A stretch of 34,734 nt of DNA from Candidatus Kuenenia stuttgartensis (GCA_943329845.2 CALQFM020000045.1:1-34734), one strand, 5' to 3'; positions 6,125-34,734 are shown, counted from the stretch's first letter. The notes: generated by a model not told the origin, from the letters alone. Numbers and translations are program-made.

Positions 6125-7135
6125 TCAGTGCTCCAGCAGGTCGCGGACGACGACCTCGATCTTGTCGGGCGTCGGCAGGTAGAGCGCTTCCAGCGTCGGC
6201 GAGGCCGGCACCGGCGTGTGCGGCGCTGTCACCTTCTTGATCGGCGCGTCCAGGTAGTCGAACGCGTCCGACGCCACGATGCTGGATATTTCCGAGGCCA
6301 CCGAGCACATCGGGTTGGCTTCGTCGACGACGACCAGACGGCCGGTCTTCTTGACGCTCTCAAGGATTGTCGCGGCATCGAGCGGCGAGGTGGTGCGGAT
6401 GTCGATCACCTCGATGCTGATGCCGTCCTTCTGCAGCCGGTCGGCCACCTCGTTGCAGAACTTCACCATGCGCGAGATGCCGACCAGCGTCAGGTCGCTA
6501 CCCTTGCGGGTGATGGCGGCCTGGCCGAACGGGATGGCATAGGGCTCGTCCGGCACCTCGCAGCTGTCGCCCAGCAGGCTCTTGTGCTCGCAGAAGATCA
6601 CCGGATCGTCGTCCCGGATCGCCTGGATCAGCAAGCCCTTGGCGTCGTAGGCGTTGGACGGCACGATCACCTTCAGGCCGGGGATCATGGTCAGCATCGG
6701 ATAGATCGCCTGGCTGTGCTGGGGGCCAGCGCCCATTCCGGCACCAATCATGGTGCGCACGACAAGCGGCGTGCGCGCCTTGCCGCCGAACATGTAGCGG
6801 AACTTCGCGGCCTGGTTGTAGATCTGGTCGAGGCAGACGCCGATGAAGTCGGCGAACATCAGCTCGGCCACCGGCCGCATGCCGGTGAGCGCCGCGCCCG
6901 CCGCCATGCCGATGATGGCGGACTCGGTGATCGGCGTGTCGATCACCCGGTCGCGGCCGAATTTGGTGGCCAGGCCCGCGGTGATGCCCATGACGCCGCC
7001 CGCCGCTTCGCCGCCGCCGGCCGAGCCGCCGGCGCCGCCCGCCACGTCCTCACCGATGATGATGACGCGGTCGTTGGCTTCCATCTCCTGGCGCAGCGCC
7101 TCGTTGATCGCCTCGCGATAGGTCTTGATTGGCAT
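6125..7135 (-). CDS. acoB: E1 beta subunit of an acetoin/pyruvate-type 2-oxoacid dehydrogenase
   Basis: A 336-residue thiamine-diphosphate enzyme subunit. With the alpha subunit encoded just upstream it forms an alpha2beta2 E1 that decarboxylates a 2-oxoacid or cleaves acetoin and transfers the acyl group to lipoyl-E2. Visible marks are IGEDVAGGAGG (an extended glycine-rich loop as in AcoB), DTPITESAIIGMAAGAALTG, MFADFIGVCLDQIYNQAAKF, GAGPQHSQAIYPML and the C-terminal transketolase domain (VIDIRTTSPLDAATI). The length is normal for the family. GGGAG lies seven bases before ATG 7135. It follows E1 alpha after 76 bases that hold two hairpins and ends at a terminator. No E2 or E3 gene is in the window. 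AcoB is favoured by the glycine-rich loop, but pyruvate or branched-chain E1 cannot be excluded. Confidence 0.85.
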   Translation of the reverse strand: MPIKTYREAINEALRQEMEANDRVIIIGEDVAGGAGGSAGGGEAAGGVMGITAGLATKFGRDRVIDTPITESAIIGMAAGAALTGMRPVAELMFADFIGVCLDQIYNQAAKFRYMFGGKARTPLVVRTMIGAGMGAGPQHSQAIYPMLTMIPGLKVIVPSNAYDAKGLLIQAIRDDDPVIFCEHKSLLGDSCEVPDEPYAIPFGQAAITRKGSDLTLVGISRMVKFCNEVADRLQKDGISIEVIDIRTTSPLDAATILESVKKTGRLVVVDEANPMCSVASEISSIVASDAFDYLDAPIKKVTAPHTPVPASPTLEALYLPTPDKIEVVVRDLLEH

Positions 7136-7148
7136 GATCTATCTCCCA

Positions 7149-7171
7149 ATCGTTTTCGAACCGAAAACGAT
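7149..7171 (-). promoter_or_regulatory. Hairpin next to the E1 beta ribosome site
   Basis: Perfect 10-bp inverted repeat, ATCGTTTTCG at 7149-7158 and CGAAAACGAT at 7162-7171, with a 3-base spacer. It begins one base from the GGGAG ribosome site of E1 beta (7143-7147). It may set the translation ratio of alpha to beta, mark an mRNA processing point, or be a protein-binding site. Confidence 0.6.
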
Positions 7172-7183
7172 AAAATTCTAGTA

Positions 7184-7209
7184 GACCGAAGGCGTAAACG
7201 ACTTCGGTC
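7184..7209 (-). other. Hairpin right after the E1 alpha stop codon
   Basis: Arms GACCGAAG (7184-7191) and CTTCGGTC (7202-7209), perfect over 8 bp with a 10-base loop, two bases past the stop of E1 alpha. A T-rich but interrupted tract follows on the minus strand, so it may be a leaky terminator or a 3'-end stabiliser. Confidence 0.5.
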
Positions 7210-7211
7210 GA

Positions 7212-8183
7212 TCAGGGGTAGCTGACGTAGACGTCTTTGTAGAGCGACGCCGGATCGGGCTGCGGATCGGCCTTGGCTTCGGCCACCGCGTCCTCGATCA
7301 GCTGCATCACTTCCACATCGATGGCGTTCATCTCGGCCTGGTCGAGCAGCGCCGCCTGGGTGACCTTCTCGGCGAAGATCTTCAGGCAGTCGTGGTTCTC
7401 GCGCAGCTCCTTGGTCTCGCCGGCGGCACGGTAGCGCTGCGGATCGCCCGCGAAATGGCCCCAGAAGCGATAGGCCTTGGCCTCGATGGCGCTCGGGCCG
7501 CCGCCGTTCCGGGCGCGCTCGATGGCCTCGCGGGCCGCTTCATACACGGCGAAGAAGTCGGCGCCGTCGACGGTCACGGCCGGGATGTTGTAGGCCTTGG
7601 CGCGCGCCTCGATGCTGCCCGCCGTCGCATAGGAGGCGGCGGTGAACTCGGCATAGCCGTTGTTCTCGAACATGAACACCATCGGCAGCTTGAGGACGGC
7701 CGCCATGTTCATGGATTCGGCCACCGTGCCCTGGTTGGCCGCGCCGTCGCCGATGAACGGCACGGCGACGCCGCCGGTCTTCAGCAGCTTGGCGCTCAGC
7801 GCCGCGCCCAGCGCCAGGGGCGGCGCGCCGCCGACGATGGCGTTGGCGCCCAGCATGCCCTTGTCCAGGTCGGCGATGTGCATGGAGCCGCCCTTGCCGC
7901 CGCAGACGCCGTTCTTCTTGCAGTAGATCTCCTTCATCATCGCCTTCACATCGACGCCCTTGGCGATGCAGTGGCCATGGCCGCGATGGGTGGAGCCGAT
8001 GTAGTCACGGTCGTCGTCGAGCTGCTCGCAGATTCCGACGGCGATGGCCTCCTGTCCCGAATACAGGTGAAGGAAGCCCGGCACCGTACCCGAGAGGAAC
8101 TCCACATGCAGGCGTTCCTCGAACTCGCGGATGGTCCGCATGCGGCGATAGGCGCTCAAAAGCTGGTCACGGCTGAGCTGCAC
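7212..8183 (-). CDS. acoA: E1 alpha subunit of an acetoin/pyruvate-type 2-oxoacid dehydrogenase
   Basis: A 323-residue partner of the E1 beta encoded downstream; it carries the thiamine-diphosphate/Mg site. The TPP motif begins at GDGAANQGTVAESMN (145-159) and ends at ENN (173-175). YIGSTHRGHGHCIAKG (61-76) and GGKGGSMHIAD (95-105) are the conserved catalytic histidine and phosphorylation-loop regions of the E1 alpha family. The start is a GTG at 8183, supported by GGGGAG six bases upstream; no in-frame ATG suits the family N-terminus. The ribosome site lies partly in the loop of a small hairpin. It is transcribed with E1 beta. The acetoin role is inferred from AcoA/AcoB resemblance; there is no AcoC, AcoR or lipoamide dehydrogenase nearby. 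Confidence 0.87.
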   Translation of the reverse strand: MQLSRDQLLSAYRRMRTIREFEERLHVEFLSGTVPGFLHLYSGQEAIAVGICEQLDDDRDYIGSTHRGHGHCIAKGVDVKAMMKEIYCKKNGVCGGKGGSMHIADLDKGMLGANAIVGGAPPLALGAALSAKLLKTGGVAVPFIGDGAANQGTVAESMNMAAVLKLPMVFMFENNGYAEFTAASYATAGSIEARAKAYNIPAVTVDGADFFAVYEAAREAIERARNGGGPSAIEAKAYRFWGHFAGDPQRYRAAGETKELRENHDCLKIFAEKVTQAALLDQAEMNAIDVEVMQLIEDAVAEAKADPQPDPASLYKDVYVSYP

Positions 8184-8243: not shown

Positions 8244-9137
8244 TCACCCCGCATATCGCGCGATGGCCTCGTTGGTGTCGCGCCACTCGGGAATGGGTCC
8301 GCCGATCAGATCATAGAACGCGCGGGCATTGGCGGCGACCTGGGCCGTGGTTGCCTCGTCAATGTCGGCGGCCGTGATATCGGAGGGCTTCAGATTGTCC
8401 GTATAGAGCAGTCCCTTCACCAGACGCTCCAGTGGCCGCGGCGCGTATTTTCGCCCCAGTTTCCATAGCGCCGTGTCACGCACCCTTGTCCGCGCCAGCA
8501 TGCCGCGCGGCAGACCGACAATGGCGGGCGTGGCATGATATTCGCCGGCCTCCGCCCGCGCCTCGGCCGGATCGAGCTCCAGCCAGTGAAAGAGCTGCGC
8601 GGCCTCGCTGACGGTGTCGGCCTGGAACCGCTCGGCGACGACGACGCGGATATTTTCATGGGGGAACAGGTCCAGATAGGGGGCCAGCTGCATGGCGTAG
8701 TCGCCGTAGTGGACGAACCGGCGGTCCTGGCTGACGGTCGCCGTGAACGGACCGCGCAGCGAAGCCGTCCGGCGTTCCTGGAAGAACTGGCTGATGATCC
8801 GGCGCAGCGGGTCGCGCACCATGTAGACCAGCCGTGCATCCGGATTGTAGGCGTGGATTCGCCGTGCCGCGCCCGTCGCGTCCGGCAGCATGCTGTAATG
8901 GGTGCTGGCTTCGCACAGGTAACGCGTGCCGGGACCCACGTCGAACAGTGCCATGTAGGCGTCCATGTCCTGATAGGACAGCATTTTCGGCCAAATCCGC
9001 GCGAGTTCCATCTTATCGGCGAAGTGGCATGGCTCCTTTTCCCTCGATGCCGTGATGGCGGGATGCGAACCCAGTACCGCATGCGCGGCGTGGGTGCCGG
9101 ATTTCATGGCACCGATGATGAACAGGTTGACGAGCAT
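8244..9137 (-). CDS. PAPS-dependent sulfotransferase domain protein
   Basis: A 297-residue cytosolic sulfotransferase of the heparan/Stf0-like type, moving sulfate from PAPS to an unknown hydroxyl or amino group. The 5'-phosphosulfate loop is FIIGAMKSGTHAAH (6-19) and the 3'-phosphate-binding stretch is VRDPLRRIISQF (107-118), with R108 and S116. The usual T/S after KSGT is histidine here. ATG 9137 is preferred over the in-frame ATG at 9224 because the phosphosulfate loop normally lies within the first 15 residues, and the extra 29 residues show no family features; neither start has a strong ribosome site. The gene lies 60 bases upstream of E1 alpha on the same strand, yet a functional link is not evident. 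No sulfate-activating genes are nearby. Confidence 0.82.
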   Translation of the reverse strand: MLVNLFIIGAMKSGTHAAHAVLGSHPAITASREKEPCHFADKMELARIWPKMLSYQDMDAYMALFDVGPGTRYLCEASTHYSMLPDATGAARRIHAYNPDARLVYMVRDPLRRIISQFFQERRTASLRGPFTATVSQDRRFVHYGDYAMQLAPYLDLFPHENIRVVVAERFQADTVSEAAQLFHWLELDPAEARAEAGEYHATPAIVGLPRGMLARTRVRDTALWKLGRKYAPRPLERLVKGLLYTDNLKPSDITAADIDEATTAQVAANARAFYDLIGGPIPEWRDTNEAIARYAG

Positions 9138-9329: not shown

Positions 9330-10175
9330 ATGAAACTGGGAATCGTCTTCATCAACACCGGCGCGCGTTCGGGCCAGTCGATCATCGAGCTGGCGCGGCG
9401 GGCCGAGGCCGTCGGCATCGAGTCGGTCTGGACCGGCGAGCATGTGATCATCCCGCTCGAGTACAGCTCGCCCTATCCCTACAACGACACCGGCAAGATG
9501 GGCGTGCCGCCCGAGACAAACCTGGTCGACCCGCTGATCACCCTGGCCGCCATCGCCGGCGCGACCAGCACCATCCGGCTCGGCACCGGCGTCAACATCC
9601 TGCCGCAGGTCAACCCGTTGCTGCTGGCCAAGCAGGCCGCCGGCCTGGATTTCATCTCGGGTGGCCGGCTGATGCTGGGCCTCGGCATCGGCTGGCTGAA
9701 GGAGGAGTTCGACGCCATGGGCGTGCCGTTCGAACGGCGCGGCGCCCGGTTCGACGACTACATCCAGGCCATGCGCAAGGTGTGGTCCGGCGATGTCGTC
9801 GAGCACCGGAGCGAGTTCCTCGACTGGCACAACTTCAAGTCCTATCCGCTGCCGGTGCAGTCGCCGCTGCCCGTGGTGATCGGCGGCGACAAGGGCAAGG
9901 CGTTCGAACGCATCGCCAAATACGGCAACGGCTGGTACACGCCGCGCCCCAGCCTGGAGGACGTGACGCGCGGCCGCGACGAGATCGCCGCCGCCTGCCG
10001 CGCCATCGGCCGCGACCCGGCCGAGATCGAGATCACCGCCATGTGGCACATGGCAACCGGCCTGGACAACGTCCGCCGCTACCGCGACGCGGGCATCCAC
10101 CGCATGCTGGTGCCGGTGGTCGGCAAGCCCGATGCAGTCATCGAGGCGCTGGGCGAGGCGATCGCGGCGCTCTGA
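9330..10175 (+). CDS. Luciferase-like (LLM) flavin-dependent oxidoreductase, TIGR03619-like
   Basis: A 281-residue TIM-barrel protein of the bacterial luciferase-like monooxygenase family, using FMN or F420. Visible features are the N-terminal strand MKLGIVF, VWTGEHVIIP (36-45, flavin-facing region), ATSTIRLGTGVNILPQVNP, the family signature DFISGGRLMLGLGIGWLKEE and the C-terminal VVIGGDKGKAFERIAKYGNGW. The length fits the short F420-type subgroup, but cofactor choice cannot be read from sequence alone; FMN is more likely in a proteobacterium. GGGAGGG precedes ATG 9330 at good spacing. It stands alone on the plus strand apart from a small low-GC gene 27 bases downstream. A distinct LLM protein lies at 30577-31572. 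The substrate is unknown. Confidence 0.85.
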   Translation: MKLGIVFINTGARSGQSIIELARRAEAVGIESVWTGEHVIIPLEYSSPYPYNDTGKMGVPPETNLVDPLITLAAIAGATSTIRLGTGVNILPQVNPLLLAKQAAGLDFISGGRLMLGLGIGWLKEEFDAMGVPFERRGARFDDYIQAMRKVWSGDVVEHRSEFLDWHNFKSYPLPVQSPLPVVIGGDKGKAFERIAKYGNGWYTPRPSLEDVTRGRDEIAAACRAIGRDPAEIEITAMWHMATGLDNVRRYRDAGIHRMLVPVVGKPDAVIEALGEAIAAL

Positions 10176-12950: not shown

Positions 12951-14513
12951 TCAGGCCGGTTCCGACCAGTATGGCTCGCGCAGGGCTCGCTTGATCACTT
13001 TGCCGAGCGCATTGCGCGGAAATGCGTCGCGTACCTCCACCGCGGCGATCCGTTGCGGCTTGGCCAGCCGTTCATTGGCCCATTCCCGCACCGCCTCGCA
13101 GTCCACCGTCGCGCCGGGCCTGGCGATCACCAGCGCCAGCGGCGTCTCGCCCCATTTGTCGTGCGGGATGCCGATGACGGTCACGTCCGACACGTCGGGA
13201 TGGCCGCCGATCACCTGTTCGATGTCGGCGGGGAACACGTTGAAGCCGCCGGAGATGATCATGTCCTTCTTGCGGTCCAGAATGTACAGGAAGCCGTCCT
13301 CGTCGAACCGGCCGATGTCGCCGGACCGGATCCAGGCGCGGCCCATATCATCCTTCCAGACCAGCTCTTCCGTGGCGTCCGGACGCTTGTGATAGCCGGC
13401 CATCACGCCACCGCCGCGCGCCACGATCTCGCCGGTCTCGCCGAAGGACAGTTCGTTGCCGTCGCCGTCAATCACACCGATGTCGAAGCCGATCACCGGC
13501 GTGCCGACCGATCCCCATTTGGCTTCCGCGTCCTCGGGCTTGATCATGGTCGCCGCGCCTTCGGAATAGCCGTAGAGCTCGTGGATGCCGCGTCCCATGC
13601 GGGCGATGACCTGCTTCTTGGTGTCGATCCGCAGTGGCGATCCGGCGGACAGCATCACCTCCAGGCTCGACAGGTCGGCCCCGTCCAGCGCCGGGTGCTC
13701 CAGGGTCACGATGTACTGGGTCGGCACCATGAAGGTGTGGGTGATCCGCTCGCGTTCGACCGTCTCGAGAAATGCCTGCGGCGTGAACGACGGCAGGATG
13801 TGCAGCGTGCCGCCGACGAACAGTACCGGCAGCGCCATCAGCCAGGTGCCGTTGGAATAGAGGGCGGTGGTGGCGAGCGCCCGGCTGCGGCGCGAGAAGC
13901 GCATCTCGATGGCGTTCGACCAGGCGAAATGCAGCCGCGCCGCGTGGCTCATGACGATGCCCTTGGGCAGTCCGGTCGTGCCCGACGAATAGATGATGTT
14001 CACCTCGTCGCCGGCGTCATAGGCCGCGTCCGGTTCGGTGCCGTCCTGTTCCGCCATCCAGCCGGCGAGGCCGCGCCAGCCGTCCGCCTCGAAGCCGTGG
14101 GCGAAGAAGCCGTTGCGGCGGATGCGTGCGAGCCGGTCCATTACCGGTTCGATCAGCGCGCGCGTGCTGGCATCGGCGAACAGCGCCTGGGCGCCCGAAT
14201 CCTCGACCATGCCGGCGATCTGGCCGGGCGACAGCAATGCCGATACCGGCACCACGCAGGCGCCGGCCTTGATCACGCCGTAGAGCACGGCGGCCATCTC
14301 GGCCGAGTTGGACATCACCACGGCGACCTTGTCGCCCTGGCCCGCGCCCAGGTCGAGCAGACCGTTGGCGACCCGGTTCATGGCTTCGTTGAACTGCCGC
14401 CACGTCCAGCGCGACGGGCCGCAGACGACGGCCTCGCGGTTGGGAAAATGCCGGGCGTGATTGGCCCAGACATGGGGCAGGAAGGCGCTGGGCGCATCGA
14501 GAATTTGCCGCAT
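12951..14513 (-). CDS. AMP-forming acyl-CoA synthetase
   Basis: A 520-residue ANL-superfamily ligase that activates a carboxylic acid to its CoA thioester via an acyl-adenylate. The P-loop is IIYSSGTTGLPKG (173-185). GYSEGAATM is the A5 region; SGDIGRFDEDGFLYILDRKK and DMIISGGFNVFPADIE cover the A7-A8 hinge; PRNALGKVIKRALR near the end supplies the A10 lysine (K505). The length and the GGFNVFPADIE form are typical of medium/long-chain or aromatic acyl-CoA ligases. The start is ATG 14513 with GGGGAG upstream; the open frame extends further back, but only into the opposite gene. It begins a minus-strand run with malic enzyme and cupin and diverges from the dioxygenase gene with 61 bases between. 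The acid used is unknown. Confidence 0.9.
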   Translation of the reverse strand: MRQILDAPSAFLPHVWANHARHFPNREAVVCGPSRWTWRQFNEAMNRVANGLLDLGAGQGDKVAVVMSNSAEMAAVLYGVIKAGACVVPVSALLSPGQIAGMVEDSGAQALFADASTRALIEPVMDRLARIRRNGFFAHGFEADGWRGLAGWMAEQDGTEPDAAYDAGDEVNIIYSSGTTGLPKGIVMSHAARLHFAWSNAIEMRFSRRSRALATTALYSNGTWLMALPVLFVGGTLHILPSFTPQAFLETVERERITHTFMVPTQYIVTLEHPALDGADLSSLEVMLSAGSPLRIDTKKQVIARMGRGIHELYGYSEGAATMIKPEDAEAKWGSVGTPVIGFDIGVIDGDGNELSFGETGEIVARGGGVMAGYHKRPDATEELVWKDDMGRAWIRSGDIGRFDEDGFLYILDRKKDMIISGGFNVFPADIEQVIGGHPDVSDVTVIGIPHDKWGETPLALVIARPGATVDCEAVREWANERLAKPQRIAAVEVRDAFPRNALGKVIKRALREPYWSEPA

Positions 14514-25572: not shown

Positions 25573-27672
25573 ATGTCAGTTGCCGCAAGGTGGGAGAAGC
25601 AGGGTGATATCGGCATCATTACAGTCGATAGCCCGCCGGTAAATGCCCTTTCCGCGCCGGTCCGCCAAGGCATATTCGACGGTGTGAAGGCGCTGGATTC
25701 CGACCCCGACGTCAAGGCCATCATTCTGATCTGCGACGGCCGCACCTTCATCGCCGGCGCCGACATCACCGAGTTCGGTAAGCCGCCGAAGGGACCGGAC
25801 CTGCGTTCGGTCCAGGAGACGATGGAGAACGCCTCCAAGCCGATCATCGCGGCGATCCACGGCACCGCGCTGGGCGGCGGCCTCGAAACCGCGCTGGCGG
25901 CCCACTACCGCGTCGCGGTGCCGTCGGCGCAGGTCGGCCTGCCCGAGGTCAAGCTTGGCCTGCTGCCGGGCGCCGGCGGCACGCAGCGCCTGCCGCGCCT
26001 GATCGGACCGGAGCGGGCGCTGAAGGTGATCGTCGACGGAAACCCGATCAAGGCGCCGGAAGCCAAGAACCTGGACATCATCGACGCGGTGGTCGACGGC
26101 GATCTGCGCCAGGGCGCCATCGCCTTCGCCCGTGCGCTGATCGACCGCGGCGCGCCGCTGCGCAAGGTGCGCGACATCAACATCGACGCTTCGACTCTGC
26201 CGGAGAACTTCTTCGCCGACTTCCGCAAGGGCCTCGCGAAGATGCGCGGCTTCCCGGCGCCCGAGAAGATCGTCCAGACCATCGAGGCGGCGGTGAACCT
26301 GCCATTCGACGAGGGCATGAAGGTGGAGCGCGCCGGCATCACCGAGCTGATGGCCAGCACCGAATCGAAGGCGCTGCGCTACATGTTCTTTGCAGAGCGC
26401 GAGGTGGCCAAGATCCCCGACGTGCCGAAGGACACGCCGCTGCGCAAGATCGAATCCGCGGCGGTGCTAGGCGCGGGCACCATGGGTGGCGGCATCGCCA
26501 TGAACTTCGCCAATGCGGGCATCCCGGTGACCGTCGTCGAGGCGACCCAGGAAGCGCTCGACCGCGGCATGCGAATCATCGAGCAGAACTATCGCAATAC
26601 CCAGGCCAAGGGCCGTCTGACCGCCGAGCAGGTCGACAAGCGCCTCGGTCTGATCACGCCCAGCCTGAGCTATGACGACATGGCCGGCGTGGACATCGTC
26701 ATCGAGGCGATCTTCGAGAACATGGAGATCAAGAAGGACGTGTTCCGCAAGCTCGACGGCATCTGCAAGCCGGGCTGCATCCTGGCCTCCAACACGTCCT
26801 ACCTGGACCTGAACGAGATCGCTGCCGTCACCCGCCGGCCCGAGGACGTCATCGGCCTGCATTTCTTCAGCCCGGCCAACGTCATGCGGCTGCTGGAAAT
26901 CGTCCGCGGCGCGAAGACCGGCAAGGACGTGCTGGCGACCTGCATGGCGCTCGCCAAGACCATCGGCAAGATCGGCGTGGTCGCCGGCGTCTGCCATGGC
27001 TTCATCGGCAACCGCATGATCGCCCGCTACAGCGGCGAGGCGAACAAGATGCTCTGGGAGGGCGCCACGCCGCACCAGATCGACAGCGTGCTCTACGACT
27101 TCGGCATGCCCATGGGCCCGCTGCAGATGGGCGATCTGGCCGGCCTCGACGTGGGCGCGCGCGCCCGCAGCGAGTTCCCCGACATGTTCCCGATCGACCC
27201 CAAGTTCCCGGTGATCGCCGATATCCTGGTGGGCAAGGGCCGCCATGGCCAGAAGACGAAGGCCGGCTATTACAAGTATGGCGACGACCGCAAGGCGACG
27301 CCCGATCCGGAAGTGGAAGCGATCATCGCCGCCGCCGCCGAGGAGCGCGGCATTGAGCATCGTCCGATCTCCAACGAGGAGATCATCGAGCGCTGCATTT
27401 ACGCCGCCATCAACGAGGGGGCGCGGGAGCTGGAGGAGGGGATCGCGCTGCGCCCCTGCGACATCGACATCATCTGGATCAACGGCTACGGCTTCCCGTC
27501 CTACCGAGGCGGGCCGATGTTCTATGCCGACACCGTCGGCGTCGACAAGGTGCACGCGGCCGTCGAGAAGTACCGCCAGCGCTACGGCGACCGGAGCTGG
27601 AAGCATTCCTGGCTGCTGGAGAAGCTCGCCCGCGCCGGCAAGGGCTTCGCCGACTGGAAGGATGTGATGTGA
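25573..27672 (+). CDS. fadJ: Bifunctional enoyl-CoA hydratase/3-hydroxyacyl-CoA dehydrogenase (FadJ type)
   Basis: A 699-residue beta-oxidation enzyme. The hydratase half has an oxyanion loop (FIAGADITEFG, 59-69) and catalytic glutamates E105 (LGGGLETAL) and E125 (GLPEVKLGLLPGAGG). The dehydrogenase half has the NAD fold AAVLGAGTMGGGIAMNFA (from about 296) and catalytic H430 in GLHFFSPANVM. The C-terminal repeat (NEEIIERCIYAAINEGA, GYGFPSYRGGPMFYAD) completes the FadB/FadJ/peroxisomal type. It is fused and complete, so one protein would turn enoyl-CoA into 3-ketoacyl-CoA in the cytosol. AGGGAAAA precedes ATG 25573. No thiolase gene is adjacent, which is unusual for a fadB-type locus. It may share acyl substrates with the acyl-CoA synthetase at 12951-14513. 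Confidence 0.93.
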   Translation: MSVAARWEKQGDIGIITVDSPPVNALSAPVRQGIFDGVKALDSDPDVKAIILICDGRTFIAGADITEFGKPPKGPDLRSVQETMENASKPIIAAIHGTALGGGLETALAAHYRVAVPSAQVGLPEVKLGLLPGAGGTQRLPRLIGPERALKVIVDGNPIKAPEAKNLDIIDAVVDGDLRQGAIAFARALIDRGAPLRKVRDINIDASTLPENFFADFRKGLAKMRGFPAPEKIVQTIEAAVNLPFDEGMKVERAGITELMASTESKALRYMFFAEREVAKIPDVPKDTPLRKIESAAVLGAGTMGGGIAMNFANAGIPVTVVEATQEALDRGMRIIEQNYRNTQAKGRLTAEQVDKRLGLITPSLSYDDMAGVDIVIEAIFENMEIKKDVFRKLDGICKPGCILASNTSYLDLNEIAAVTRRPEDVIGLHFFSPANVMRLLEIVRGAKTGKDVLATCMALAKTIGKIGVVAGVCHGFIGNRMIARYSGEANKMLWEGATPHQIDSVLYDFGMPMGPLQMGDLAGLDVGARARSEFPDMFPIDPKFPVIADILVGKGRHGQKTKAGYYKYGDDRKATPDPEVEAIIAAAAEERGIEHRPISNEEIIERCIYAAINEGARELEEGIALRPCDIDIIWINGYGFPSYRGGPMFYADTVGVDKVHAAVEKYRQRYGDRSWKHSWLLEKLARAGKGFADWKDVM

Positions 27673-27811: not shown

Positions 27812-30448
27812 ATGGACCAAGCCAGCCCGCAGACCATCCGCCTCCAGGATTACCGTTCGCCGTCCTTCGTCATCGAGACCGTCGACCTGCGGTTCGACCT
27901 CGACGAGGAGTACACGACGGTCACCTCCGTGCTGACGGTGGTTCGCGAACGGCCGGACGAGCCGCTGGAACTGGACGGCGACGAGCTGGAGCTGGCCTCG
28001 CTGAAGCTGGACGGCCAGGCTCTGTCGCGGGATGACTACACGGTCACGCCGCACGCGCTGATCATTCCGGTCATCGGCGACCGCGCGGAGATTGAGATCG
28101 TCACCCGCATCCAGCCGCAGAACAACACCCAGCTTTCCGGCCTCTACAAGTCGAGCGGCAATTTCTGCAGCCAGTGCGAGGCGCAGGGCTTCCGCCGCAT
28201 CACCTTTTTCCTCGACCGGCCCGACGTGCTGTCGCGCTACACCACGACGATCACCGCCGACAAGGCGAAATATCCGGTGCTGCTGTCGAACGGCAATTTG
28301 ATCGAGGAGCGGGACCTCGACGGCGGCAAGCACCTGGCGGTCTGGGAAGACCCGTTCCTGAAGCCCTGCTACCTGTTCGCGCTGGTCGCCGGCGACCTGG
28401 CGCATGTCGAGGACCATTTCATCACGTCCTCGGGCCGCGACGTGACGCTGCGCATCTATACCGTGGCCGAGGACGCCGACAAGTGCGAGCACGCCATGGA
28501 CTCGCTGAAGAAGGCGATGAAGTGGGACGAGGACACCTACGGTCTCGAATACGATCTGGACATCTACAACATCGTGGCCGTGCGCGACTTCAACGCCGGC
28601 GCCATGGAGAACAAGAGCCTCAACGTGTTCAACAGCGCCTATGTGCTGGCGACGCCCGAGACCGCGACCGACACGAACTTCAATGCCATCGAGAGCGTCA
28701 TCGCCCACGAATACTTCCACAACTGGACCGGCAACCGCATCACCTGCCGCGACTGGTTCCAGCTCAGTCTGAAGGAAGGCCTGACCGTCTTCCGCGACCA
28801 GCAGTTCTCGGCCGACATGCAGTCGGCCGCGGAGCAGCGGATCGATGACGTGAAGTCGCTGCGCGCCCGCCAGTTCCCCGAGGACGCCGGCCCGCAGGCG
28901 CATCCCGTGCGGCCTGAGTCCTACATAGAAATCAATAACTTCTACACTGCGACCGTCTATGACAAGGGCGCCGAGGTGATCCGCATGATGCAGACCATCA
29001 TCGGCGAGGATAATTTCCGCAAGGGCATGGACCTGTATGTGAAGCGCAATGACGGCACTGCCGCCACGGTGGAGGACTTCGTCGCCGCCATGCAGGACGC
29101 GTCTGGCGTCGATCTCACCCAGTTCAAGCGCTGGTACGGCCAGGCGGGCACGCCGCACCTGGAAATCCGCGGCCAGTGGGACCAGGGCGCACAGACCTAC
29201 ACGCTCAATGTCAGGCAGTCGACCAAGCCGACGCCGGGACAGCCCGACAAGCAGCCGCTGCATATCCCACTTGCCATGGGCCTGCTCGGCGCGGGAGGGC
29301 AGCCCTTGCCGCTGATGCTGGACGGCGAGAACGACGGGCCGCTCAGCCGCGTGCTCGACGTCAAGGAACCGGAGCAGAACTTCACCTTCACCGGCGTCAG
29401 CGAGCGGCCGGTGCCGTCGCTGCTGCGCGGCTTCTCGGCGCCGGTCACCATGGACGCCGGCTACAGCCGCGACGACCTGGCGTTCCTGCTGCGCAGCGAC
29501 CCGGATTCCTTCGCCCGCTGGGAAGCCGGCCAGACCTTGGCCACCGGCCTGATGCTCGACCTGGTGGCCGCATATCGCCGGGGCGAGGCGCTGACGCTCG
29601 ATCCCGCCTTCATGGCGGCATTCGAGAGCGTGTTGACGAGCACCGCGCTGGACCCGGCGCTGATCGCCCTCACCATCATCCTGCCCAGTCAGGCCTATCT
29701 GGGCCAGCAAATGGCCGAGATCGACGTCGAGGCCATCGAGCGTGTGCAGCGGTTCGTTCGGGGCGAGTTGTCACGCCGCCTGCGCGGCGACTTCCTCGCC
29801 ACCTACGAACGGCTCAATGACCGGAAGCCATACGTTTTCGAGACCGCTACCGTCGGCCGCCGCAGTTTGAAGAACGTCGCGCTGTCCTACCTGATGGCCG
29901 ATCCGACAGAAGACATCATTGCCCTGTGCCGCGAGGAATTCTTCCGCGCCGACAATATGACCGACTCGCTGGCGGCGCTGACCGCGCTCGCCAGCACCAA
30001 CACGCCGGCGCGCGAGGAGGTCATCCAGGCGTTCTATGACAAATGGTCGAAGAATCCGCTGGTGGTCGACAAATGGTTCTCGGTCCAGGCGATGTCCGAC
30101 CTGCCCGACACGCTGGAGCGGGTCACGGCGCTGATGGGGCACGAGGCTTTCTCGCTGCGCAACCCGAACCGGATGCGCGCCCTGGTCGGCGCGTTCACCC
30201 AATCCAACCAGCCGCGCTTCAACGACGCCGATGGCGGCGGCTACAGGCTGCTGGCCGACGTTGTGCTGGAATTGAACAAGATCAATCCGGGCAACGCGGC
30301 GCGCTTGGCTGGCGGCTTCAACCATTGGCGCCGTTTCGACGAGAAGCGCCGGGCCCTGATGCGGGGTGAATTGGAACGGATCCTCCGCGAGCCCGGTCTG
30401 TCGAAGGACGTTTACGAGATCGCCTCGAAGAGTATGTCAGGGGCTTAG
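27812..30448 (+). CDS. pepN: Aminopeptidase N (M1 zinc metallopeptidase)
   Basis: An 878-residue cytosolic enzyme that removes N-terminal residues in general peptide turnover. The exopeptidase signature GAMEN is at 263-267. The zinc site is HEYFHNWTGN (H299, E300, H303) with Glu322 in LSLKEGLTVF, the spacing of the M1 family. An N-terminal beta domain (from IRLQDYRSPSFVIETVDL) and a long C-terminal helical domain are complete, and the length matches the E. coli-type PepN class. ATG 27812 is preferred over the in-frame GTG 27800; GAAGAG lies before it. No signal peptide is seen. It stands alone after fadJ; there is no obvious metabolic link. Confidence 0.96.
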   Translation: MDQASPQTIRLQDYRSPSFVIETVDLRFDLDEEYTTVTSVLTVVRERPDEPLELDGDELELASLKLDGQALSRDDYTVTPHALIIPVIGDRAEIEIVTRIQPQNNTQLSGLYKSSGNFCSQCEAQGFRRITFFLDRPDVLSRYTTTITADKAKYPVLLSNGNLIEERDLDGGKHLAVWEDPFLKPCYLFALVAGDLAHVEDHFITSSGRDVTLRIYTVAEDADKCEHAMDSLKKAMKWDEDTYGLEYDLDIYNIVAVRDFNAGAMENKSLNVFNSAYVLATPETATDTNFNAIESVIAHEYFHNWTGNRITCRDWFQLSLKEGLTVFRDQQFSADMQSAAEQRIDDVKSLRARQFPEDAGPQAHPVRPESYIEINNFYTATVYDKGAEVIRMMQTIIGEDNFRKGMDLYVKRNDGTAATVEDFVAAMQDASGVDLTQFKRWYGQAGTPHLEIRGQWDQGAQTYTLNVRQSTKPTPGQPDKQPLHIPLAMGLLGAGGQPLPLMLDGENDGPLSRVLDVKEPEQNFTFTGVSERPVPSLLRGFSAPVTMDAGYSRDDLAFLLRSDPDSFARWEAGQTLATGLMLDLVAAYRRGEALTLDPAFMAAFESVLTSTALDPALIALTIILPSQAYLGQQMAEIDVEAIERVQRFVRGELSRRLRGDFLATYERLNDRKPYVFETATVGRRSLKNVALSYLMADPTEDIIALCREEFFRADNMTDSLAALTALASTNTPAREEVIQAFYDKWSKNPLVVDKWFSVQAMSDLPDTLERVTALMGHEAFSLRNPNRMRALVGAFTQSNQPRFNDADGGGYRLLADVVLELNKINPGNAARLAGGFNHWRRFDEKRRALMRGELERILREPGLSKDVYEIASKSMSGA

Positions 30449-30506
30449 GGCTGCCGGTTTTCCGAGGCCATCCTTCAGCCCGATGCATGGGCTCCTCAGA
30501 TGCCTA

Positions 30507-30538
30507 TTGACAGAAGTCAAACATGTTTGAAATATATC
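30507..30538 (+). promoter_or_regulatory. Promoter of the LLM-Rieske-amidohydrolase operon, with operator in its spacer
   Basis: TTGACA at 30507-30512 is a perfect -35 box. An AT-rich stretch (30530-30538, containing AATATA at 18 bp spacing and TATATC at 20 bp) supplies the -10; which hexamer is used is uncertain. The space between is filled by the palindrome at 30517-30530. This is also the most AT-rich part of an otherwise GC-rich region. Confidence 0.6.
30517..30530. promoter_or_regulatory. 14-bp palindromic operator candidate
   Basis: TCAAACATGTTTGA is a perfect dyad sitting between -35 and -10, where a bound dimer would block RNA polymerase. Its core CAAAC-AT-GTTTG fits, from memory, the C/GAAAC-N2-4-GTTTG/C site of PsrA, a fatty-acid-responsive TetR-family repressor of Pseudomonas. 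That suggests a TetR-type regulator responding to an acyl or CoA-linked signal; no regulator gene is in the window. Confidence 0.6.
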
Positions 30539-30576
30539 TGAGGTAAGCCGGCTCACAGCTTCGGGGAGGAAGTGAC

Positions 30577-31572
30577 GTGACCAATTTCGGCCTCAGATTC
30601 GATTTGCGTCGCCATCCGGACGGCGCCAGCCACCAGGCGCTCTACAACGCCTGTATCGAGCAATGTGCCTGGGCCGATGAACTCGGCTTCACCACCATCA
30701 TGATCTCCGAGCATCACATCGCGCCGAGCGGTTACATGCCGTCGCCGATCGTGCTCGGCGGCGCCATCGCGGCGCGGACCAGCCGGGCGCGCATCCGCAT
30801 CTCGTCGCTGGTCGCGCCCCTGCACAATCCGCTGCGGCTCGCCGAGGACCTGGCGACGCTCGACCTCATCTCCGGCGGCCGGCTGGAGCCGGTGTTCAGC
30901 GGCGGCTATGTGGGCGACGAGTTCGAGGCCATCGGCACCTCGCTCGCCGCCCGCAAGGATTTCATGGAGGAGCTGCCGCCCTTCCTGCGCGCCGCCTGGG
31001 CCGGCGAGGAAGTGAGTTGGCGCGGCGGCCCGAAATTCCAGCTGACTACGCTACCTGTGCAGCAGCCCTTCGTGCCGATCTGGATGGGCGGCGCCTCCAA
31101 GGCCGCCGCCCGGCGCGCCGCGCGCCATGCCGACCAGTTCCAGCCGGCGCACAAGGCGCTGTGGGAAACCTACGAGGAAGAGCTGGTCAAGCTGGGCAAG
31201 CCGATCCCGAAGCGCCTGCCGCCGAGCGCCATGTTCTGGGTTGCCGAGGACCCGGACGCGTTCTGGGCGAAGTTCGCCCGGCACGCCATGCTGGAGAATG
31301 ACGAATATGGCGGCTGGTACGAGAAGTGGAACGCCTGGAACGGCTACGTCATCGAGCCCGACGCCGACGCGCTGCGCGCCACCGGCCGCTATCCGGTCGT
31401 GACGCCCGAGGAGGCGGTGCGCCGCGCCCAGGCGCTGGGGCCGGACGGCTTCGTCATGTTCCAGTGCATGTCAGGCGGCCTCGACCCCGACGTGCAGTGG
31501 GAAAGCCTGGAACTGGTCGAGAAGAAGGTGCTGCCGGCGCTGCGGGCCGCGCCGGCCCTCGCGACCGCTTAG
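30577..31572 (+). CDS. Luciferase-like (LLM) flavin-dependent monooxygenase, first gene of the catabolic operon
   Basis: A 331-residue TIM-barrel flavoprotein, likely an FMNH2-dependent monooxygenase. MISEHHIAPSGYMPSP (about 44-59) gives the conserved EHH near the flavin, RISSLVAPLHNPLRLAEDLA (70-90) is a typical luciferase-family block, and DLISGGRLEPVFSGGYVGDE is the family signature in altered form. PIWMGGASKAAARRAARHAD follows. The start is GTG 30577 with GGGGAGGA at proper spacing. It lies behind a palindrome-containing promoter, and its stop overlaps the AGGAG ribosome site of the Rieske gene, so the genes are one operon. No flavin reductase gene is nearby. It belongs to a different subgroup from the LLM at 9330-10175. 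The substrate is unknown. Confidence 0.87.
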   Translation: MTNFGLRFDLRRHPDGASHQALYNACIEQCAWADELGFTTIMISEHHIAPSGYMPSPIVLGGAIAARTSRARIRISSLVAPLHNPLRLAEDLATLDLISGGRLEPVFSGGYVGDEFEAIGTSLAARKDFMEELPPFLRAAWAGEEVSWRGGPKFQLTTLPVQQPFVPIWMGGASKAAARRAARHADQFQPAHKALWETYEEELVKLGKPIPKRLPPSAMFWVAEDPDAFWAKFARHAMLENDEYGGWYEKWNAWNGYVIEPDADALRATGRYPVVTPEEAVRRAQALGPDGFVMFQCMSGGLDPDVQWESLELVEKKVLPALRAAPALATA

Positions 31573-31583
31573 GAGAACGGCTC

Positions 31584-32810
31584 ATGGATCTCGCGACGGC
31601 GGAACTCCTGCGCAACCACATCGAGGTCGAGCGCTCGCGCAACGCGCCGCCCGACGGATTTCCCGACCTGCCGCCCATTCCGGCTGGCCGCTACACCGAC
31701 CCGGCATTCCACGAGCTGGAGAAGCAGCTGATCTTCGACAAGTGCTGGCTCTATGTCGGCTCGGGCTGGGAGATTCCCGAGGCAGGCGACTACAAGTCGT
31801 TCGACAACTTCCGCCGCGCGCCGGTGCTGATCATCCGCGGCAAGGACATGAAGGTGCGCGCCTTCTACAACACCTGCCAGCATCGCGGCGCCACCATCAC
31901 CCGCGAGCCCTGCGGCAAGGCCGGCAGCCGGCTGAAGTGCCAGTTCCACAGCTGGACCTATGACCTGGAGGGCAAGCTGGTCGGTATTCCCGGTCCATGG
32001 GATTTCTCGCCCGACATGGACCGCAGCAAACACAATCTGAAGCCGGTGCGCTGCGAGATGTGGGGCGAGCACATCTTCGTCAACTTCGATGCGAATGCGC
32101 CGGATCTGGCCACCTATCTGGGCCCTGTCGCGTCCGATTTCGAGTGGGCGTCGACCCTGCGGCCGTCCAACCGGCGCTCGCGGGTGATGGCGTGCAACTG
32201 GCGGATCGCCATCGAGGCGTTCATCGAGGTCTACCACATCACCACGATCCACCCGGAGACCGTGTCCGGCAGCATCGACTACCGGGGTACGGTGTCGTCG
32301 TTCTTCCCACACGGCCATTCGCGGATGATCGTCCCGAACACGCCGGCCTACTACAAGGCGCCGCCGGAGGAGATTCCGGAAGACTGGGACGAGGGCAGGG
32401 CGCTGCGCGGTGAGGCCAACGTGTCCTACCACATCTTTCCCAACCTGCTGACGCCTGCCAGCCAGACCGGCTACATGCTGATGGAGTTCTGGCCGCTCGA
32501 CCACAACCACACCGAGATCGTCACCTGGGTCGTCGAGCAGGATTGGGGCGAGGGCGAACCGCCCGAGGACTACTTAAACCGCGCAAAATACTTCGACGTC
32601 GTCCTCGACGAGGACACCTGGAACATGGAGCACATCCAGCACTCGCTGCTGTCGCCCAGCTTCGCCGGGCCGAAATGCTCCTATCACGAGAAGCGCATCT
32701 ACTACCTGGAACAGCATGTCGACCACCTGCTTGACGGGCACGTGCCCGAGCACCTGAGGGTCGCGCCGTTGCTGGCCGACAGGATCATCGAAACGGCCCG
32801 CGCCGTCTGA
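31584..32810 (+). CDS. Rieske non-haem iron oxygenase, catalytic (alpha) subunit
   Basis: A 408-residue oxygenase. The Rieske [2Fe-2S] ligands are C98/H100 (CQHRG) and C119/H122 (CQFHSW), 18 residues between pairs. The catalytic iron site is EAFIEVYHITTIH with H218 and H223; the third acidic ligand is likely D342 or D344 (LDEDTWNMEHIQ). At the position of the usual inter-subunit bridging Asp there is Glu215. Electrons would travel Rieske to iron to hydroxylate, desaturate or demethylate an organic substrate. No beta subunit, ferredoxin or reductase gene is adjacent, so redox partners must come from elsewhere. ATG 31584 has AGGAG at good spacing; the frame is open further upstream only as overlap with the preceding gene. 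Confidence 0.9.
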   Translation: MDLATAELLRNHIEVERSRNAPPDGFPDLPPIPAGRYTDPAFHELEKQLIFDKCWLYVGSGWEIPEAGDYKSFDNFRRAPVLIIRGKDMKVRAFYNTCQHRGATITREPCGKAGSRLKCQFHSWTYDLEGKLVGIPGPWDFSPDMDRSKHNLKPVRCEMWGEHIFVNFDANAPDLATYLGPVASDFEWASTLRPSNRRSRVMACNWRIAIEAFIEVYHITTIHPETVSGSIDYRGTVSSFFPHGHSRMIVPNTPAYYKAPPEEIPEDWDEGRALRGEANVSYHIFPNLLTPASQTGYMLMEFWPLDHNHTEIVTWVVEQDWGEGEPPEDYLNRAKYFDVVLDEDTWNMEHIQHSLLSPSFAGPKCSYHEKRIYYLEQHVDHLLDGHVPEHLRVAPLLADRIIETARAV

Positions 32811-32838
32811 ACCACCGTTACACCGGGGAGACCGAACC

Positions 32839-34575
32839 ATGTCCGATTACGATATCCTGATCCGTGGCGGCACCGTCATCGACGGCACCACAATCCCGCG
32901 CTTTCGCGCCGATGTCGGCATCAAGAACGGCAAGGTCGCCAAGATCGGCGGCATCCGCAAGACGGCGAGCGCCGACAGGGTGATCGACGCCGGCGGCAAC
33001 ATCGTCGCGCCCGGCTATATCGATATCCACACCCATTACGACGCTCAGATCCTGTGGGATCCGTACTGCACGATCTCCGGCTGGCACGGCGTCACTTCCG
33101 TGCTGCTGGGCAATTGCGGCTTCGGTTTCGCGCCGATTCCGCCGCACATGCGCGACCGCGCCATGATGATGATGACCCGCAACGAGGCCATCTCCTTCGA
33201 CACCATGAAGGAAGGCATGGAATGGGACAAATATGGCTGGGAGACGATCCCCGACTGGATCGAGCACCTGAAGCGCATTCCCAAGGGCGTCAACTGCCAG
33301 ACCATGGTGCCGCTCAACCCGCTCTACGCCTATGTGATGGGCAGCGTCGAGGAGGCCAAGAGCCGGCGGCCGACCGAGGCGGAAAAGCAGCGGATGTTCG
33401 CGATCATGAACGAGGCCATGGACCACGGCGCCTGCGGCTTCTCCTACCAGCGCTGCGGCGTGCCTTCGGTGCAGCCCGACTGGGACGGCACGCCGATGCC
33501 GACTGACGTCATCCCCGACTACGAGCTGATCGAATTCGGCCGCGAGCTGGGCAAGCGCGGCGAGGGCTTCATCGAGATGTTCGACGGCGCGCCGTCGGAC
33601 CACGACACGGTCGAGGACTTCATGACGTCGCTGGCCGAGGCGTCGCAGCGGCCCATCGTGCGCAACATCCTGCTGGCCAACGACCGCGACCCCAGGCGCC
33701 ACGAGGCGTTCCTCGACTGGCTGAATGAATCCCACGAGAAGGGGCTGCAGGTCTATGGCATGGGCTTCACCGTCCGTTCGCCCACGCTGCTGACGTTCGA
33801 GGACTGGAGCCTGTGGGACAACGCGCCGCACTGGCACGGGGTGATGAACGGCCCGTATGAGCAGCGCGTCGCCATGATGCGCGACGAGAAGGTTCGCGAA
33901 GGCCTGCGCCAGGACATCGACCGCCGGCTGGTCGGCGGCCTGGGCACGTCGGGCGTGGCGCAGGAACTGCGGGTGCACGGCTCGGCGGGCTATACCCAGC
34001 TCGACAAATATGTCGACCGGGGCGTCGCAGAGATCGCCGCCACCGAGGGCCGGCACATCGCCGACGTCATCCTCGACATCGCCCTCGACTCCGAGTTCAA
34101 GGCCGAGTTCGTCGGCAACGCCTACGACACCTCGGCCGAGACCACCGCCAAGGTGCTGGCCAATCCCTATGTGGTGCCCGGCATCTCCGACGGCGGCGCC
34201 CACTGCCATTTCGTGGTGCAGGGCGCCTATCCCACCGACCTGCTGGAATGGATGGTGCGCGAGCAGGGCTTGATGACCGCCGAGCAGGCGCATTACGGCC
34301 TCAGCCGCCTGCCGGCCCACGTGCTGGGCCTGCCCGACCGCGGCATCCTGCGCGAAGGCGCGCCGGCCGACGTGGTGGTCTACGACCCGGACACCATCCG
34401 CCGCACCCCGTCCTGGGACAAGATGGAGAAGCTCTACGACCAGCCCGCCGGCGGCTGGCGCCGTTCGCAACGGGCCGAGGGCCTCAACTTCACCATCGTC
34501 AACGGCCAGGTCACCTTCGAAGGCCTGGACTGCACCGGCGCAACGCCGGGCGAGGTGCTGCTCAACCGGGGGTGA
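32839..34575 (+). CDS. Second D-aminoacylase-like amidohydrolase, last gene of the catabolic operon
   Basis: A 578-residue relative of the 522-2219 protein. DIHTHYDAQ (H64, H66), GNCGFGFAP (C93) and SDGGAH (D451, H455) are kept. As in the relative, the strands that should end in His carry FIEMFDG and PIVRNILLAND, so the two extra zinc-binding histidines of D-aminoacylase are absent. It also has a distinct DHGACGFSYQRCGVPSVQPD segment and a long SPTLLTFEDWSLWDNAPHW loop. GGGGAG precedes ATG 32839. It lies 28 bases after the Rieske gene. The context suggests hydrolysis of an amide, imide or lactam-like product after oxygenation; this is inference, as the family contains few proteins of proven role. 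Confidence 0.87.
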   Translation: MSDYDILIRGGTVIDGTTIPRFRADVGIKNGKVAKIGGIRKTASADRVIDAGGNIVAPGYIDIHTHYDAQILWDPYCTISGWHGVTSVLLGNCGFGFAPIPPHMRDRAMMMMTRNEAISFDTMKEGMEWDKYGWETIPDWIEHLKRIPKGVNCQTMVPLNPLYAYVMGSVEEAKSRRPTEAEKQRMFAIMNEAMDHGACGFSYQRCGVPSVQPDWDGTPMPTDVIPDYELIEFGRELGKRGEGFIEMFDGAPSDHDTVEDFMTSLAEASQRPIVRNILLANDRDPRRHEAFLDWLNESHEKGLQVYGMGFTVRSPTLLTFEDWSLWDNAPHWHGVMNGPYEQRVAMMRDEKVREGLRQDIDRRLVGGLGTSGVAQELRVHGSAGYTQLDKYVDRGVAEIAATEGRHIADVILDIALDSEFKAEFVGNAYDTSAETTAKVLANPYVVPGISDGGAHCHFVVQGAYPTDLLEWMVREQGLMTAEQAHYGLSRLPAHVLGLPDRGILREGAPADVVVYDPDTIRRTPSWDKMEKLYDQPAGGWRRSQRAEGLNFTIVNGQVTFEGLDCTGATPGEVLLNRG

Positions 34576-34734
34576 TGAGAGAAGTTTAGCCCGAATTATT
34601 CATCAGCCGGGCTATTCCGGGTCGGCGAACGTAGCTTAACCTACTGATTTGGTGTAGAGAATAGGCGCTTAGACCACTCTCGAACACCGGACAGAAAGTG
34701 CCACGCCCGCCATGGTCGACGATAGCGTTGCTGG
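34576..34734. other. Gene-free right end, lower GC
   Basis: No reading frame with coding character is visible. A hand count of 34621-34680 gives about 48% G+C, far below the surrounding genes. A hairpin sits at its left. The composition shift may mark the edge of a different segment, such as a mobile element beyond the window. Confidence 0.4.
34588..34613 (+). other. Hairpin after the last operon gene
   Basis: AGCCCG (34588-34593) and CGGGCT (34608-34613) form 6 bp with a 14-base AT-rich loop, 12 bases after the amidohydrolase stop. No T-run follows, so termination would be weak; it could also be one end of a repeated or mobile sequence. Confidence 0.45.

Follow-up and report, generated by a model that had tools for sequence, protein, structure and literature searches.

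The predicted three-gene operon at positions 30449–34575 of a 34,734 nt stretch of DNA recorded under Candidatus Kuenenia stuttgartensis (GCA_943329845.2 CALQFM020000045.1:1-34734, here called the window) combines enzymes of familiar families in an unfamiliar way. Judged by gene order and sequence similarity among relatives, its conserved core is a lone Rieske oxygenase alpha subunit and an amidohydrolase-superfamily hydrolase, together with a PsrA-like TetR repressor, and a luciferase-like (LLM-class) flavin monooxygenase is an accessory member. We favour, with some reserve, the view that the trio is a dedicated, substrate-inducible catabolic operon under repressor control. As the core pair recurs in three bacterial classes, the operon is probably a dedicated kit for the breakdown of one compound, itself probably greasy.

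The window takes up all of contig C45 in a genome (G000) of 3.68 Mb assembled as 107 contigs, whose relatives among named records are metagenome-assembled genomes (MAGs) labelled mostly Alphaproteobacteria. A preliminary description of the window had placed an LLM monooxygenase, a Rieske oxygenase and a hydrolase here on one strand, and domain matches confirm all three genes:

30577–31572, + strand: LLM-class flavin monooxygenase, 331 aa, accessory member (Pfam Bac_luciferase, E 5.5e-39)
31584–32810, + strand: lone Rieske non-heme iron oxygenase alpha subunit, 408 aa, core member (Rieske, E 1.2e-14; Ring_hydroxyl_A, E 1.4e-24)
32839–34575, + strand: amidohydrolase-superfamily hydrolase, 578 aa, core member (Amidohydro_3, E 6.9e-20)

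A GGAG-type ribosome-binding site lies just 5′ of each of the three starts. The junctions are short, as had been described, and the 28 bases between the Rieske and hydrolase genes stand; the gap between the LLM and Rieske genes is 11 bases rather than 12, and the three genes do not overlap.

To follow the association beyond the window, we defined module loci as those with a hydrolase at least 60% identical to the window's. This gave 12 loci in 11 genomes. Besides the window, seven more genomes of its family have one each, a Gammaproteobacteria MAG has two, and UBA2965 (Gammaproteobacteria) and an Acidimicrobiia MAG add one each. Gene calls in the relatives, which are MAGs, come from a home-made open reading frame caller and blastp labels. 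The gene orders are as follows:

G000 (the window): LLM, Rieske, hydrolase
G005 and G006: LLM, Old Yellow Enzyme (OYE)/FadH, Rieske, hydrolase
G002: LLM, Rieske, hydrolase
G003: Rieske, hydrolase
G009: TetR, Rieske, hydrolase, LLM, second LLM (LLM2)
G007: TetR, Rieske, hydrolase
G008: Rieske at one contig end, hydrolase at another
L049: Rieske, TetR, LLM, hydrolase
L056: hydrolase, Rieske, P450
L050: TetR, Rieske, SRPBCC, FAD protein, LLM, hydrolase
L052: hydrolase, P450, Rieske, Rieske

Co-occurrence is thus non-random for the Rieske and hydrolase genes, which are adjacent or in one gene row in 11 of the 12 loci, the twelfth (G008) being split over contig ends and so undecidable. The expectation that all three families travel together fails for the LLM, which accompanies only 7 of the 12 hydrolase loci; on this count the core is the Rieske and hydrolase pair and the LLM an accessory. 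Six other module loci have LLM orthologues (58–93% identity), and G001 has a partial copy (95%). With the LLM as query, G003, G007 and G008 gave no close match, which argues against a fixed three-step pathway. We considered G001 as a case of co-absence and dropped it: the contig stops inside the LLM gene, the upstream operator is intact and the remainder may be unassembled. The completeness of one further genome, G004, is only 78%. In two relatives of the same genus a FadH/OYE-like flavoenzyme of 651–654 aa lies between the LLM and Rieske genes (L058:10603-12555 and L046:6714-8678), and is absent from the window and from G002.

With 61 matches to the Rieske query, or about 57 proteins, in the window's genome (and 23 matches to the LLM), a Rieske neighbour found by chance would carry little meaning. 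In a maximum-likelihood tree of 53 Rieske proteins, however, the 12 hydrolase-linked ones form one clade (support 100/99), in which the alphaproteobacterial half is sister to a gamma/Acidimicrobiia half and which is set apart from the 38–43% identical paralogues of the same genomes. In all three bacterial classes, on these sequences, a single lineage of Rieske proteins has a single lineage of hydrolases as its partner. Among hydrolase homologues of 36–49% identity (other Alphaproteobacteria, Microthrix-like Actinobacteria and the UBA2965 order), neither a Rieske of the clade nor a close LLM adjoined in the neighbourhoods examined, outside which the listed UBA2965-order matches at 45–49% fall; the association therefore belongs to the hydrolase subfamily of at least 60% identity. 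Plasmid records, searched for close relatives, yielded only matches below 60% identity, and these have different neighbours. Separately, G057, which belongs to the same class and has a genome of 1.4 Mb, carries an independent cluster of a hydrolase-family protein, a Rieske and an OYE (L068:7475-11622; locus GC 36%), at 31%, 43% and 46% identity to the library labels, which suggests that the hydrolase/Rieske pairing arose or was retained more than once.

The earlier proposal of one operon with a single regulated promoter is supported. One promoter-like element is found in the 128-base gap before the LLM gene:

30507–30512, + strand: TTGACA, putative −35 box, of which TTGAC is kept in all the relatives' promoters compared
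30517–30530: perfect 14-base palindrome TCAAACATGTTTGA, 3′ of TTGACA, a predicted TetR (PsrA-like) operator of the form CAAAC-N2-GTTTG

A simple sigma-70 scan of 30400–34734 returned no promoter-like site, and the case for the promoter is made by the conservation of TTGAC and palindrome in relatives. In L045, L058 (both promoters), L059, L048, L051, L170 and L180 the palindrome is directly preceded by TTGAC. The pair lies 5′ of the first gene in five genomes of the genus: of the LLM gene in G002, G005 and G001, as in G000, and, in degenerate form, of the Rieske gene in G003. It is also found ahead of the TetR gene with which the operon begins in L048 and L051, and the palindrome lies ahead of a separate TetR gene in G000 and G005. 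A perfect 14-base palindrome arose by chance in 0.7% of base-shuffled versions of the gap.

The 16-mer TTCAAACATGTTTGAA, searched with at most two mismatches in five genomes, occurs at one to three places per genome, and the reversed control pattern at none. Only two of these places fall in the window's genome, one in the operon promoter and the other at C81:11347, 25 bases before a TetR gene (C81:11372-11974; domains TetR_N and TetR_C_30). The C81 protein is 90–92% identical to the products of TetR genes found 37 bases past the hydrolase gene in G005 and about 3.4 kb past it in G002, and orthologues of about 42–64% stand in the operons of L048, L051, L049 and L050, reaching the Gammaproteobacteria with the module. 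The predicted site CAAACATGTTTG, found upstream of both the operon and the TetR gene, has the form of a PsrA operator, C/GAAAC-N2-4-GTTTG/C (PMC13104628). PsrA is released by long-chain fatty acids (PMC13104628, PMC5722320), and a PsrA-like regulator of Stenotrophomonas binds long-chain fatty acids (PMC13104628). Because the operator has the published form of PsrA's, a hydrophobic, acid-like inducer is likely, and we infer from the sites that the repressor is likely to be autoregulated, with a ligand of that kind. PsrA is also the best NCBIfam model for the C81 protein.

The window's contig ends 159 bases past the hydrolase gene, within a repeat shared with an end of contig C58; the last 150 bases (34584–34734) are 99% identical, in inverted orientation, to the start of C58. 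A repeat, possibly a mobile element, thus lies directly after the hydrolase gene and probably stands between it and the TetR gene of C81. Near-copies of the operator, TCGAACATGTTTGA, occur at L171:10556 (G005) and L172:9631 (G002), between a different TetR gene (28–30% identical) and an enoyl-CoA hydratase-like operon; they represent a probable paralogous system.

The hydrolase had been called a divergent, D-aminoacylase-like enzyme, a label that holds for the fold but does not extend to the metal site. Foldseek matched the structure model to 1m7j (E 3e-23), and VIA gave Z 28.1 to 3gip and 27.8 to 1v4y, with 27.3–28.1 over 427–438 residues for all nine entries of the family and 21.4 for the next family; the model has a mean pLDDT of 67.9 and is poor near the active site. 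H64 and H66 (the HxH motif), C93 and D451 (the catalytic Asp after strand 8) are invariant in the alignment. Characterized subtype V amidohydrolases bind zinc through Cys97, His222 and His252 in PpOngB numbering (PMC12017989). From residue 84 to residue 287, no His is invariant across the 13 hydrolase sequences. Predicted strand 5 reads GFIEM and strand 6 IVRNILL, so that in the model E247 and N276 occupy the places where His would be expected. If the ligands are equivalent, the Cys/His/His beta-site is incomplete, with the Cys kept and both His missing. As no conserved beta-site zinc His was found, D-aminoacylase activity should not be assumed. Paralogues, including a second Amidohydro_3 protein of the window (522–2219), likewise lack the beta-site histidines in their alignment.

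The Rieske protein has the sequence hallmarks of an oxygenase alpha subunit, CxH...CxxH and a 2-His-1-carboxylate site, with PF00355 and PF00848 above cut-off. In an alignment of nine sequences the cluster ligands C98, H100, C119 and H122, the iron ligands H218, H223 and D344, and E215 are all invariant. It falls below the cut-off of every NCBIfam family matched, the best being GbcA (NF058607) at 127 against 670 bits; its nearest folds are CntA and stachydrine demethylase. CntA has a bridging glutamate (PMC7948474), and E215 stands at identical spacing (E-x2-H-x4-H) to the position of CntA E205. A quaternary amine as substrate, suggested by this residue, was dropped as an argument, since Glu is present at this place in nearly all of the 53 Rieske proteins compared; a residue near-universal among lone alpha subunits is not diagnostic. 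No match to PF00175, the NAD-binding domain of FNR-type reductases, was found in the whole of the window's genome, which is listed as 100% complete, while control genomes do match. The electron donors of its roughly 57 Rieske proteins must, on this search, be of another type, for example a ferredoxin with a glutathione-reductase-like flavoprotein.

The LLM scores above the Pfam Bac_luciferase cut-off (134.8 against 27.9 bits) and below that of the F420-dependent subfamily TIGR03619 (119.6 against 166.9). Its nearest solved relatives are alkanal monooxygenase-like proteins, and its match to 4uwm, the type II Baeyer–Villiger monooxygenase (BVMO) 3,6-diketocamphane monooxygenase, is weak (E 8e-4).

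Our data are consistent with a model in which the PsrA-like TetR would bind the promoter palindrome and shut off both the operon and its own gene, until a hydrophobic, acid-like substrate or early product frees it from the DNA. The Rieske enzyme would then hydroxylate or oxidatively dealkylate the compound, with electrons from an unlinked ferredoxin/reductase; the LLM, where encoded, would perform an additional flavin-dependent oxygenation, and reduction by OYE would be optional. The amidohydrolase would cut the oxygenated product (an ester, lactone or amide) of a cyclic or acyl-linked hydrophobic compound, and the acids released may pass to acyl-CoA ligation and beta-oxidation encoded elsewhere. 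The sequence basis of this model is the gene order, the Rieske and hydrolase pairing, the palindrome, the putative autoregulatory site and the intact oxygenase residues, whereas what class of ligand the repressor senses, in which order the steps run and which bond is cut are our deductions.

Several observations weigh against the model. The LLM was not found in G003, G007 and G008, and two of the 12 loci (L052 and L056) have a GntR regulator in place of TetR and a P450 beside the Rieske gene. The module encodes no electron-transfer partner. The TetR gene is off the window's contig, its place next to the operon being deduced from synteny, and its PsrA score (66.3 bits) is under the curated cut-off of 300.

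Among alternative pathways, an attractive special form of the model, which we regard as rather unlikely, is a Baeyer–Villiger route in which the LLM gives a lactone that the amidohydrolase opens. LLM-family type II BVMOs and short-chain dehydrogenases/reductases (SDRs) have been proposed to open alicyclic rings via lactones in SAR202 (Landry 2017, PMC5395668), and suitable companions do occur in relatives: in L048 the row continues with genes for an SDR, a second LLM, SnoaL and a crotonase, L049 has an SDR, SnoaL and a second LLM, L050 has an FAD_binding_2 protein and a second LLM, and the OYE/FadH enzyme encoded between the two oxygenases of G005 and G006 is related to the mycofactocin FadH/OYE and BaiCD models. 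The window's operon, however, has no SDR, the resemblance to 3,6-diketocamphane monooxygenase is weak, and because 5 of the 12 loci have no LLM, the route cannot operate generally. Breakdown of an N-acyl compound (a lipoamino acid, acyl amide or acyl-homoserine lactone) would have the hydrolase free a fatty acid and an amine, the Rieske enzyme oxidize the amine or the acyl moiety, and the acyl groups set free act as inducers by way of the PsrA-like repressor. The D-aminoacylase fold, the PsrA-type operator with the TetR_C_30 domain, and fatty-acid binding by the Stenotrophomonas regulator (PMC13104628) would all fit, but the Cys/His/His zinc site of characterized D-aminoacylases, incomplete in this hydrolase, and the lack of any need for two unlike oxygenases make this unlikely.

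It is less probable again that the Rieske enzyme works in the manner of CntA, GbcA or stachydrine demethylase and oxidatively N-demethylates or N-dealkylates a quaternary or tertiary amine. The nearest folds, the E215 spacing and the best NCBIfam match all point that way, yet the GbcA score is far below its cut-off, the bridging glutamate is non-diagnostic, and at the equivalent of CntA position 203 one half of the clade has F where the second half has N. Single-target, autoregulated TetR repressors often govern defence against lipophilic toxins, and the operon might in principle detoxify a harmful hydrophobic compound rather than support growth on it; the lack of an efflux pump in the module in this family, and the catabolic-type SDR and crotonase genes in the extended row of L048, leave detoxification very unlikely. 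A bolder version of the favoured catabolic reading, which we put forward only tentatively, is a mobile catabolic module of Alpha- and Gammaproteobacteria and Acidimicrobiia, in which the Rieske has as its obligate partner an amidohydrolase with a metal site of a new type (HxH, Cys and Asp kept, beta-site His lost). The hydrolase would cut the oxygenated product by a reaction not yet reported, a PsrA-like protein would sense the compound, and the whole would be a defined unit for degrading a recalcitrant hydrophobic compound.

Enzymes that could handle the products had been noted elsewhere in the window, and they are present, although nothing ties them to the operon:

12951–14513: acyl-CoA ligase, no link to the operon
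25573–27672: FadB-like protein, no link to the operon
522–2219: second Amidohydro_3 protein, no link to the operon

The last is 36% identical to the hydrolase of the trio, is kept in the genus and adjoins a pyrroloquinoline quinone (PQQ)-dependent dehydrogenase gene (2321–4270). Also in the window, a sulfotransferase-like protein (8244–9137) adjoins 2-oxoacid dehydrogenase E1-type genes (6125–8141) and a second LLM (9330–10175).

Oxidation of recalcitrant organic matter has been proposed for genomes that carry Rieske and LLM paralogues by the dozen, and the genes are usually studied as families. One Rieske lineage of about 57 is now tied to a fixed hydrolase partner and to its own repressor with a defined predicted operator. 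Repressor and operator could serve as a biosensor for the inducer without culturing, which makes the question of the substrate directly testable.

Each enzyme family is already known, and the fixed, seemingly repressor-controlled combination was not found in the literature searched: no open-access paper on a gene cluster of a Rieske, a D-aminoacylase or amidohydrolase and a luciferase-like gene was found, in keeping with the earlier remark that no characterized pathway has exactly this set. By analogy, the operon resembles camphor-type pathways, in which hydroxylation is followed by LLM-family oxygenation (diketocamphane monooxygenase) and ring opening; these use a P450 where the module has a Rieske and involve no amidohydrolase. 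The Rieske shares an alpha-only architecture, iron ligands and bridging Glu with the group V enzymes CntA, GbcA and stachydrine demethylase, but is about 20–23% identical to them in structural comparison, falls below family cut-offs and has no reductase encoded nearby. With D-aminoacylase, N-acyl-D-glutamate deacylase and PpOngB the hydrolase shares the fold (Z 27–28) and the active-site HxH, Cys and Asp; it differs in length (578 against about 480 aa), in the lack of conserved His on predicted strands 5 and 6, and in a sequence match limited to the N- and C-terminal parts. The repressor system recalls PsrA, the regulator of fatty-acid oxidation in Pseudomonas, in its CAAAC-N2-GTTTG operator, its TetR_N and TetR_C_30 domains and the site before its own gene, whereas the window's genome has only two operator sites and the predicted target is an oxygenase/hydrolase operon rather than fadBA. 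Lastly, expansions of LLM-family (FMNO) and ring-hydroxylating dioxygenase paralogues have been proposed to oxidize recalcitrant organic matter in SAR202 (PMC5395668, PMC6946804). The same enzyme families occur there in many copies per genome, as in the window's genome; SAR202, however, belongs to the Chloroflexota, and those papers describe families and hypothetical pathways and mention no amidohydrolase, whereas the window's genome carries what appears to be a fixed, repressor-controlled operon.

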